Assembly: GCA_013178225.1 (NCBI GenBank)
Contig: JABLXE010000003.1
Location: forward strand, 248,001 to 312,000
Length of the DNA stretch: 64,000 bases
Direction: 5' to 3'
DNA from: Methanotrichaceae archaeon
GTDB lineage: Archaea > Halobacteriota > Methanosarcinia > Methanotrichales > Methanotrichaceae
Position 1 is the first letter of the stretch; every line of letters starts with the position of its first letter. The translations under genes were made by a program, and so were the position numbers. The notes under the pieces were generated by a model. That model was not told the origin of the DNA and made no database searches. It saw only the letters and a program-made list of their open reading frames with translations. Positions 50,794-53,840 of this stretch are shown one piece after another.

Positions 50794-52317
50794 TCAGCGA
50801 ATGAGCATGCCTGAGAGCACCACCACGAACAGCCCCAGGAAGAACCAGCCCAGGATGCCCTCCAGCATGGCCAGGTGCCTGTAGAACCCCACCGGATAAG
50901 TGTTCACCGGGGCCTGCGACGTGGTGAACATCGCGGTGGAAAAGTACACGGCGTCTATAAAGGAGACGCGATTTCCGGGAACCACTTTCGCCGATCCTCC
51001 CGCGATCTCCAGCCCCTCGAACTCAAACTTCCTCATTCCGTTGCCGACGTACAACGCCACCCCGAAGAATATGATGGTGAAGAGGCACCAGAATATGGTG
51101 TAGCTGACGCGAACCCCGTAGCCCGCAGAGAGCCAGGCTATGATGTCCACGAACTTGGTCCAGCTCCAGGGTTCCTGCTCCTGGGAGATCCGGCGGTACT
51201 GGTAGTAGCAATCGTCGGCATCGTCGAACCACTCCAGGTTCTTGTAGTTCTTGACCAGGGCCAGATAGGCCGCGCCGTTGAAGACCAGAAGATCCTTTAT
51301 GGTGTCCCAGCGGACCATGAACTTCGAGAAGTCCGAGTTGTTCAGGTTCAACTGCGCGCCCGGCCCGAATTTCGCATCCTCAAGCTGCATGCTGTAAAAT
51401 CTGGAGCCCTCCAGGATCAGCCCCTTATTGAAGTTTGCTTCTGTGAAGTGAGCGTTGTCCGAGAATTTGGCCAGGCCGAAGAAGGCCACCTCCTTGAAAT
51501 CGACACCCGCAAAGTCTGCAAACCCCCCAAAACTGGCCAGGCCGAAGGTGGTGCCGTTGGTGAACTGGGCACCCCTGAAGATAACATCTCCGTTGAAGCT
51601 GGTGGCAGCAAAGCTGGCATTTCCCAGAAATCTGGTGCTGCCGAAATTAGATATGCCGTCAAACTGGGAATTGGTGAATCCCGTGAGGCTGGAGAATTGA
51701 GCGCTATTGAAGGAGACCAGCTGGGAGAACTGGGCGAAGTCGAAGCTTACGCGGTCCCTGAACTTCGTCCCCAGGAAGATGGCGTCGCCTGCAAAACGGG
51801 CGCTGGCAAAGCTTGCCTCCTTTCCGAATTCCGACATGGTGAAGGCGGCCATTCCGCTAAAGCGGGTGTCGCGGAAGTCGGTCTGCCCTGAGAACGTCGT
51901 TCCCTCGAAGCTTGCGTCCTCCAGAAATCGAGCCTTTCGAAAGCTGGTGCGGTTCATGAACTCAGTTCCGGAAAACGATACCGGCTGCTGGAAGGTTACA
52001 TCCTCGAAGTTGGCAGGCCCCTGGATCCTGGACCCGGTAATGCTTATGGATTGTTCCACAGGTCCTGAAAGTCCGCTCAAATCGAGGTAGCCGGTGACGG
52101 TTACGTTGTGGTAGCTCACCTTTTCTCCGGACCTGACCATAGACAGGATCTGTTCAGATGTAATCACCTGCTGGGTTGCAGGCTTCAGATCCGGGAGGGA
52201 TGACGAACTCTGGCCGGGGCTATCCTGCGCCAGCGCCGGGCCGGCCAGGGCCGAAAATTGCAGCAAAACCACCAGGACGATGGTCAAGGCGTCTATTGAT
52301 ATCGGTAAGGCTCTCAT
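50794..52317 (-). CDS. Exported pentapeptide-repeat protein with ion-channel-like C-terminal domain
   Basis: This 507-residue protein has a signal peptide (cleavage near GPALAQ). A long pentapeptide-repeat region covers about residues 95-320: ADF/ASF-type pentads such as FSGTEF, FLEDASF and FAGDAIF, predicted to form a right-handed quadrilateral beta-helix. A conserved WFDDADDCYYQYRR segment precedes a membrane domain of three helices. Its last two flank a re-entrant pore-like segment (DAVYFSTAMFTTSQAPVNTY), as in two-helix K+ channels. The TVGYG filter is absent; SQAPV stands there instead. It may be an ion channel gated by an extracytoplasmic sensor. A frameshifted paralog (52361-53840) lies just upstream. 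Confidence 0.85.
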   Translation of the reverse strand: MRALPISIDALTIVLVVLLQFSALAGPALAQDSPGQSSSSLPDLKPATQQVITSEQILSMVRSGEKVSYHNVTVTGYLDLSGLSGPVEQSISITGSRIQGPANFEDVTFQQPVSFSGTEFMNRTSFRKARFLEDASFEGTTFSGQTDFRDTRFSGMAAFTMSEFGKEASFASARFAGDAIFLGTKFRDRVSFDFAQFSQLVSFNSAQFSSLTGFTNSQFDGISNFGSTRFLGNASFAATSFNGDVIFRGAQFTNGTTFGLASFGGFADFAGVDFKEVAFFGLAKFSDNAHFTEANFNKGLILEGSRFYSMQLEDAKFGPGAQLNLNNSDFSKFMVRWDTIKDLLVFNGAAYLALVKNYKNLEWFDDADDCYYQYRRISQEQEPWSWTKFVDIIAWLSAGYGVRVSYTIFWCLFTIIFFGVALYVGNGMRKFEFEGLEIAGGSAKVVPGNRVSFIDAVYFSTAMFTTSQAPVNTYPVGFYRHLAMLEGILGWFFLGLFVVVLSGMLIR

Positions 52318-52360
52318 TGACAGTGCAGCCTAGGAAGTCATGATCATTTAATCTTATAAA

Positions 52361-53840
52361 TCATCTGATCATAATATTGCTCAGCGAGACCAAGAACAGA
52401 GCCAGCAATAGCCATCCCAGCAATCCTTCGATGATGACCGCGTATCTGTACCGTCCCAGGGGAACGAAGTCCACCGGGGCCTGGGCTATGAAGACCATGG
52501 CGCTGAAGTAAAGGCTCTCCTCAAGTCCGGCATTCCCCCGGTCTGAAATTGCCTTCTCGTCCGCCCTGGCGATTCCCCGCCCGAATACGAAGAGCAGGGC
52601 GAAGAAGACTATGGCCGCAATGGAGAGCAGGACCGTATAGGCAGGCCTCACCCCGTAGCCGCAGGATATCCAGGCAGCGACGTCGGCGATCTTGGTCCAT
52701 CCCAGTGGCTCTTTGTCCTGAGTTGTCCGGCGGTACTGGAAGTAGCAGTCGTTGGCGTCGTCGAACCACTCCAGCTCCCGGTAGTTCTTGACCAGGGCGA
52801 TATAGGCCGGACCGTCGTACTGCAGATGGCCGGAGAGCGTCTTCCAGGGAGCTTCCAGCCGGAAGAACTCTGCGTCGCGGAGATCTATCCTGGAGTCCTC
52901 CGCGAAAGTTGCGTTTTCCAGCTTGATGTTGTGAAGCTGCGCCCCGACAAGGTTCAAGCCGCCGCCGAATCGAGAGCCTTCGAGCTGGGCCAGTCCCTCG
53001 AACTCGGCCAGGCCGAAGACAGCATCTCCTGAAAAGTCGACCGATCCGAAATAGGCAGCGGCATCGAACCGGGACAGGAGGAAGCTGGCCTCCTGGGAAA
53101 AGCGAGATGAAGCGAAGCTGGCCCTGGTCCTGGAAGTTCGCCCCGGCAAAGACGGCAGATCCCTGAAAGGAGGTCCCATCGAAGTTCGAATACTGGTCGA
53201 AACGGGCATTGATGAAGTTGACCTGGCCAAAACTGCTGTTGCTGAAGTCCGCGTTGCCTTTGAACTGGCACTCCAGGAAGCTCGCGTTCTCTAGACTCGC
53301 ATTCCAGAATCCGCAGTAGCCTCCGAAAGAGGTGAAGTTGAAGTCGGCGCGGCCCTCAAATCGAGCTTGATTAAATAGGGTGTGTGAAAGGCTGGCATCG
53401 ATGAAGCTCACGTTCTTAAAGGTCGCATTGGAGAAGCTGCTGTCGTCGAGAAACTGAGCCAGGAAGAAGCTCGCATCGTCCGGAAACCGGACATCCTTGA
53501 AGCTGGTGCTCTTGAAGAACTGGGCCGCCGAGAAGTCGGCACTCTTATCGAAGACGGTGCCTTCAAAATCGACGAAATCCGCGAAACTCGTGCCCAGGAA
53601 ATTTGCACCGTGTATTGTGGAGTTGGTGATGGAGAAGGTGCCGTTCACGCCCAGGCCGCTCAGATTGAGATCGCCGGTTATCTCTACGCAATCGCAGGCC
53701 ACAGGCCGTCCCGTTTGCACCCTGGAAAGGATCTCCCCTGCTCCGACCTGCTCACCGTCCGCCTTCACAGGCAGCCATAAAGCCACGGTCAGCAGGACCA
53801 ATAACATAACAGTTTGCCAGGACACTACCCTATGGCTCAT
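52361..53840 (-). pseudogene. Second pentapeptide-repeat/ion-channel-like protein, interrupted by a one-base frameshift
   Basis: This is a paralog of the preceding gene with the same order: signal peptide (SHRVVSWQTVMLLVLLTVAL), pentapeptide repeats, WFDDANDCYFQYRR, and a channel-like end with AQAPVDFVPLGRYR where the selectivity filter would be. The frame from 53840 is good until about 53127 and then switches by one base. The continuation (ASFASSRFSQEASFLLSRF onwards) is in another frame and runs to 52361. Removing one base of the CCC at 53122-53124 restores a continuous protein of about 493 residues. Both halves keep normal codon use and conserved residues, so decay is very recent or the extra base is a sequence error. 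Confidence 0.85.

Follow-up and report, generated by a model that had tools for sequence, protein, structure and literature searches.

Tandem archaeal pentapeptide-repeat proteins carry a potassium-channel-like pore domain with a replaced selectivity filter and a probably inverted topology

RESULTS

Two tandem genes couple a pentapeptide-repeat domain to a two-helix membrane domain

The acetate-eating, methane-making archaeon studied here carries two tandem genes on the minus strand at positions 50794-53840 of the window, the window being the whole 64,000-nucleotide stretch of Methanotrichaceae DNA that was analysed. Copy 1 lies at 50794-52317 and copy 2 at 52361-53840, and the order of parts is common to both: a signal peptide, Pentapeptide_3 repeats, a helical joint with the motif WFDDA(D/N)DCY(Y/F)QYRR, and two hydrophobic helices that flank a short helix and a loop. 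This anatomy, with its coordinates and strand, had been proposed from an unaided look at the letters (the sequence-only reading), and open reading frames (ORFs), Pfam, alignment and AlphaFold bear it out.

Copy 1 is an intact ORF of 507 aa, and its AlphaFold model has a mean pLDDT of 88.1 (86.5 for the C-terminal part modelled alone). Sequence reading and hydropathy place a signal peptide with an AXA-type end at about residues 1-31 (52225-52317, minus strand, as are all features below); its hydrophobic helix, residues 8-24 in the model, ends ALA/QD. The pentapeptide-repeat beta-helix follows at about residues 66-335 (51313-52122; PF13576, E 1.1e-33), with Pentapeptide_3 scores of 115.6 bits in copy 1 and 74.3 bits in copy 2 against a gathering threshold of 27. 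By model comparison it shares the right-handed beta-helix of HetL (PF13576; PDB 3du1) with a Z of 21.2 over 226 residues, but differs from HetL, which we take to be soluble, in being predicted to be exported and in its fusion to a membrane domain. The family alignment and the model helices define the joint with its interfacial helix (about residues 337-403; 51109-51309), which contains WFDDADDCYYQYRR and an invariant GYG preceding the first transmembrane helix. The model then gives TM1 at residues 404-424 (51046-51108; mean hydropathy 2.09), a pore helix at 453-466 (50920-50961) and TM2 at 479-506 (50800-50883); SQAPV occupies residues 467-471 (50905-50919), as marked by alignment, ortholog conservation and a DNA pattern. 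Pentapeptide families are the sole Pfam matches of copy 1 above threshold, with no recognised catalytic domain; a named-family search returned no NCBIfam or PADLOC family for either copy, and a viral sequence collection contained no relatives of them.

Copy 2 has the same type of architecture, split by a frameshift into two overlapping ORFs in different frames, an N-terminal one at 52521-53840 and a C-terminal one at 52361-53230. The frame changes near 53117-53132, and the C-terminal domain downstream is intact, with QAPV at 52472-52483 (counted from the C-terminal end of the ORF). We considered a programmed frameshift and set it aside because the positional counterpart of copy 2 in genome G003 (L176), which neighbours copy 1 there, also has broken frames, at other places. 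A sequencing error is a possible source of the frameshift.

The membrane domain is homologous to potassium channel pores

A profile of the C-terminal domain (joint plus the two helices) matched KirBac3.1 in the PDB at E 0.001, in an alignment that sets pore helix, loop and TM2 against their counterparts. When the rows bearing GYG were taken out of the profile, KirBac3.1 was still the top match in the same register, at an E of 0.99 that is not significant. Individually, 24 of 52 family members match Ion_trans_2 (best 2e-17), and the NCBIfam family K_channel_Meth weakly matches the pore of GYG-bearing members. The window copies themselves fall below the Pfam gathering thresholds, copy 1 against IRK (E 0.044, 14.1 bits vs 22.7) and the C-terminal part of copy 2 against Ion_trans_2 (E 0.091, 13.1 bits vs 22.5), and a PDB sequence search with full copy 1 gave no match. 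Both the profile and the model place a two-helix domain with a re-entrant pore helix in copy 1. The model superposes on KirBac3.1 with a Z of 11.8 and an rmsd of 2.1 over 86 residues, where a Z near 12 can reflect an arrangement common among helical folds and the input alignment of the model contained GYG rows; a Foldseek search with the model had a best E of 0.05 and none below 0.001. Together, the 2TM/P-loop domain is homologous to potassium channel pores, and the channel-like character that the sequence-only reading had given it is supported by the KirBac3.1 profile match and the AlphaFold model. The likeness to KirBac3.1 and other 2TM potassium pores (Ion_trans_2, IRK) takes in TM1, pore helix, loop and TM2, which profile and model both align in register; the window copies differ from such pores in lacking TxGYG, in having a signal peptide and a pentapeptide ectodomain, and probably in their orientation in the membrane.

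The potassium filter has been replaced by clade-specific loops in Methanotrichaceae

No signature of potassium channels is better conserved than the TxGYG filter. Both copies lack it: in the alignment, SQAPV(N) of copy 1 and AQAPV(D) of copy 2 take the columns of T-V-G-Y-G-(D) in relatives, as the sequence-only reading had it. Scanning 84,980 species genomes yielded 69 loci, and outside the Methanotrichaceae most members have the potassium filter. It reads TVGYGDWYP in ANME-1 (L081), a Methanosarcinales MAG (L082), ANME-2 (L103) and a Heimdallarchaeote (L085), TLGYGDWYP in a further Methanosarcinales MAG (L097), TIGYGDWYP in Splendidivirga (L087, Bacteroidota) and a Euryarchaeota MAG (L079), and TIGSGDLYP in L084; Methanosarcina (L080) has TFGNND and a Bacteroidales member (L086) TLGTVK. 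Among the close relatives read within Methanotrichaceae, only M. harundinacea UBA1 (L054/L083) retains TIGYGDWYP; two distant signal-less cousins have TPGYAL, and the other loops include TSQAPVN, SQGPI, AQSPA, ANSKG, AKTQV, GGTPD and SATPSE. Almost throughout Methanotrichaceae (Methanothrix), then, clade-specific loops stand in place of the potassium filter. The existence of GYG-bearing relatives, which the sequence-only reading had missed, identifies the window loop as a rewritten potassium filter and not an unrelated pore.

A further group of signal-less archaeal pentapeptide/2TM channel proteins (L148-L163) shares the joint, the GYG before TM1 and the pore domain with the window copies. These cousins differ in having a cytoplasmic-type N-terminus, filters that are mostly TLGYGD or SLGYSN, and a more positive N-flank and C-terminus. 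Several of L150-L154 start with a cysteine-rich motif (CKFK...CPLEALPGEEYCYWH) followed by pentapeptides, and L150-L154 have the same joint and pore as the family, with SLGYSN-type filters. Separately, in L097 and L103 (Methanosarcinales/ANME-2) an insertion of some 100 residues separates TM1 from the pore helix.

The filter alignment comprised 141 domains after removal of duplicates (identical last 110 residues) and of rows with X in the matched part; matches ending more than 8 positions before the model end, including the insert-split ANME-2-type L097 and L103, also fall outside it. A tree of 109 rows was built with the filter columns excluded, after removing rows of >=88% identity and domains shorter than 115 residues. 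On this unrooted tree, changes between GYG-like and other filters number at least 6. We infer that GYG was ancestral to the family, because it is present in Archaea, in Bacteria, in the signal-less cousins and in potassium channels at large.

The GYG directly before TM1 forms part of S-C-G-Y-G-V-R (window 51109-51129), in which copy 1 has alanine in place of the cysteine. Both glycines are invariant in the family alignment, GYG-filter members included, and this GYG is not the filter. The idea that the filter had been relocated to this site was rejected because members with a GYG filter also carry it.

SQAPV is under strong purifying selection in one clade

We assembled 30 orthologs (copy 1 and its 29 best relative matches, L001 and L010-L038), picking each ORF on residues 46-440 so that the pore was excluded from the choice. 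SQAPV is present in 28 of the 30, the exceptions being AQGPV (L029) and SQSPA (L038). The 11-residue window around the filter has a mean conservation of 0.961 (rank 9 of 497 windows, 7 tied), compared with 0.936 for the pore helix, 0.871 for TM1 and 0.699 for the beta-helix. All four codons are used for each of the alanine, proline and valine across the 28 distinct sequences. Such retention with freely varying synonymous codons shows that SQAPV is under strong purifying selection in copy 1 orthologs, as the sequence-only reading had suspected of QAPV. At the DNA level, an exact pattern for MFT-x-SQAPV occurs once each in 28 of 50 family genomes, covering 5 of 11 genera, and its reversed control nowhere; a degenerate pattern for SQAPVNTY has one match in the 64 kb window, at copy 1, and none in 100 shuffles. 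More broadly, 37 of the 50 family genomes have a match at E <=1e-100, with none in the nine genomes of genus g10.

Beyond this clade the loop varies. Deeper members of the copy 1 clade have QSPA, QSPP or QAPA, so the shared core is Q-small-P, and paralogs elsewhere in the family have QGPI, NSKG, KTQV or QSPA in place of QAPV, which thus marks one clade. Checking whether QAPV is invariant among homologues, as had been suggested at the outset, returned QGPI, NSKG, KTQV and others in other clades; QAPV is therefore not a universal filter, and its retention in two diverged copies, once put forward as evidence of constraint, is weak evidence. Copies 1 and 2 are not sisters in the 109-row tree, where AQAPVD of copy 2 falls outside the copy 1 clade in an unsupported placement, so recent duplication does not explain the QAPV of both.

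Signal peptides and charge point to a probable inversion of the pore module

Signal peptides are found in 79 of 133 members, GYG-filter members included, and have clear n-, h- and c-regions and AXA-type ends across Archaea and Bacteria. The C-terminal domain has exactly two hydrophobic segments in 90 of 109 rows and three or four in 19. A signal peptide followed by only two membrane helices would make the P-loop face the cytoplasm, opposite to its placement in KcsA, a topology that the sequence-only reading had not considered.

We compared flank charges between the 79 members with a signal peptide and 34 without, the other 20 of the 133 being placed in neither class; L004, L053, L149 and L156 were assigned to the class without by hand, and a strict-rule match of L045 was disregarded. 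Subtracting the loop charge from the summed charge of N-flank and C-terminus leaves a net 1.37 in members with a signal peptide and 5.65 in those without (p 6.6e-12). All four flanks shift, by p-values that ignore relatedness: the N-flank (2.24 with vs 3.18 without, p 0.007), TM1 to pore (0.52 vs -0.56, p 0.0014), filter to TM2 (1.49 vs 0.44, p 6.4e-7) and the C-terminus (1.14 vs 2.35, p 3.4e-12). Within the near family only (79 vs 16) the differences hold except at the N-flank (p 0.063), and under a stricter signal-peptide rule, which admits ATG starts only and misfiles copy 1, they hold except again at the N-flank (p 0.49). A tree-corrected comparison of charge with signal peptide had 3 supported pairs, about 1.8 of them in the expected direction, and was not significant. 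The shift agrees in direction with what the positive-inside rule would predict for opposite insertion. Signal-peptide members nevertheless retain a small positive excess of N-flank and C-terminus over the loops (+1.37); taken alone, this would favour the KcsA orientation. The density of N-glycosylation motifs offers a weak test that goes in the right direction, with 2.15 N-x-S/T per 100 aa in signal-peptide members and 1.03 in those without, ratios to the reversed motif (2.72 and 2.0) overlapping. In sum, good indirect evidence suggests that the P-loop module is probably inverted relative to KcsA.

In four members of Methanothrix type (L044, L048, L125 and L126), the filter reads KTQV or KTLV, the signal peptide is missing and the C-terminus is more positive. 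These four are candidate cases of reversed insertion in a single genus.

Copy 1 lies in a conserved housekeeping neighbourhood

On one side of copy 1 lie hisG, a metallophosphatase, a nitroreductase and an Elp3-like gene, and on the other a wyosine radical SAM gene and others. These neighbours are conserved in several genera, with hisG at 6 and the radical SAM gene at 7 of 9 compared loci. Judging by this conserved housekeeping synteny, copy 1 appears to be inherited as a core gene, as opposed to belonging to a mobile or defence island. Searched against Pfam, the nine neighbouring genes included no nucleotidyltransferase; eight could be named and one had no match.

DISCUSSION

We favour, with a probability of roughly 0.5, the reading that these proteins are built on an inverted channel scaffold like that of GluR0, with a pentapeptide ectodomain, a derived Gln-Pro filter and a probably non-potassium-selective pore. 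Copy 1, and copy 2 before its breakage, would be an exported surface protein with a cleavable signal peptide, an outer beta-helix, the joint and the 2TM/P-loop domain. The chain would enter TM1 from outside, so that, as in GluR0, the module sits upside-down compared with KcsA: its loop would dip into the membrane from the cytoplasm, and the C-terminus would lie outside. In this lineage TVGYG appears to have given way to clade-specific loops, that of copy 1 being S-Q-A-P-V-N, kept by purifying selection. The protein would presumably act as a tetramer, with a pore gated by the outer beta-helix and joint. The narrowest part of this pore would be a ring of Gln and Pro, in the simplest form four Gln468 side chains, past which ions may move without potassium selectivity. 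In AMPA receptors, too, the inverted loop has a glutamine at its tip. In KcsA terms, a proline-bearing loop without the two glycines cannot build the four carbonyl sites of the potassium filter, so potassium selectivity of the copy 1 pore is very unlikely. The conserved loop and pore helix speak for a working narrow part, while the proline may make it a closed loop.

GluR0 has a signal peptide, two transmembrane helices and GYG, and PhoA fusions indicate a topology opposite to KcsA, with cytoplasmic fusion sites falling short of significance (PMC13099474). Glutamate receptors are described as inverted potassium channel pores joined to binding proteins (PMC6385376). The window copies resemble GluR0 in their signal peptide, outer sensor domain and two helices with a P-loop, but copy 1 has no periplasmic-binding-protein ligand domain (Pfam finds pentapeptide repeats alone), the filter is replaced, and the ectodomain is confined to the N-terminal side.

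A wider proposal, which we judge on balance unlikely and offer tentatively, is that the family uses the potassium pore in both orientations, switched by gain or loss of the signal peptide, and that the upside-down Methanotrichaceae branch evolved new filters, SQAPVN being the main conserved one. Its members would be gated by a beta-helix, like ionotropic glutamate receptors without glutamate-receptor ancestry, and would have a selectivity unseen in known P-loop channels.

The main rival, itself somewhat doubtful, is a non-conducting surface sensor or anchor, in which the channel frame would be a tetrameric stalk for the beta-helix and the loop would seal it or bind a cytoplasmic partner. The loss of GYG from almost all Methanotrichaceae clades in favour of many different replacements, the proline in the loop, and a beta-helix without a recognised catalytic domain all fit this picture. 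However, a mere plug should drift, and the higher conservation of loop and pore helix than of TM1 and beta-helix is the pattern of a working pore; a partner-binding loop would also be conserved.

We consider it improbable that the N-terminal helix is not an exporting signal peptide and that the beta-helix is cytoplasmic, with the loop facing outward as in KcsA. The homologous signal-less cousins, with cytoplasmic-type N-termini and channel filters, lend this canonical orientation some weight, as does the charge balance of signal-peptide members, which is not outright inverted. Against it stand the well-formed signal peptides of both domains of life, the charge shift in all four flanks, a doubled N-x-S/T density (though with overlapping reversed-motif ratios), and the precedent of GluR0.

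Little credence attaches to a Hailong-like role in defence, where a nucleic acid signal in the cytoplasm would keep the channel blocked until infection releases it. HalA of that anti-phage system (PDB 9nyi_A) aligns with the model across joint and pore together (Z 11.3, rmsd 4.0, 154 residues), although HalA was absent among the PDB profile matches listed. None of the nine neighbouring genes is a nucleotidyltransferase, the housekeeping synteny is conserved, and the sensor domain is predicted to be extracellular; there was also no match in the 2023 PADLOC library, which probably predates Hailong. Moreover, HalA binds a DNA signal, according to the 9nyi entry title and PMC13275509, and no HalB-type gene lies near the copies. 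Least probable of all is that these are decaying pseudochannels whose filter was lost by drift, as the broken frames of copy 2 and its G003 counterpart might suggest: this is likely for copy 2, barring sequencing error, but largely refuted for copy 1, given its unbroken frame, its conserved synteny and the strong purifying selection seen in 28 of 30 orthologs.

Each domain family involved is known, and the combination of an exported pentapeptide domain, a probable inversion and conserved replacement filters appears to be new, in that our literature search did not find it: among the matches listed, with subscription papers mostly outside its reach, none concerned a pentapeptide-repeat P-loop channel of this kind. 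A filter that was replaced and then frozen is a natural experiment on other uses of the P-loop frame, for which the GYG-bearing relatives serve as controls. If the inversion is true, an outer sensor would have been coupled to an inverted pore by a second route in addition to that of glutamate receptors, and the signal-less sister proteins would reveal how the orientation of a pore can switch. The Methanothrix hosts are major methane producers with the copy 1 gene in their conserved genome, and the loop, replaced and since then kept nearly constant, suggests that they maintain a functional pore or gate of a sort not yet familiar.
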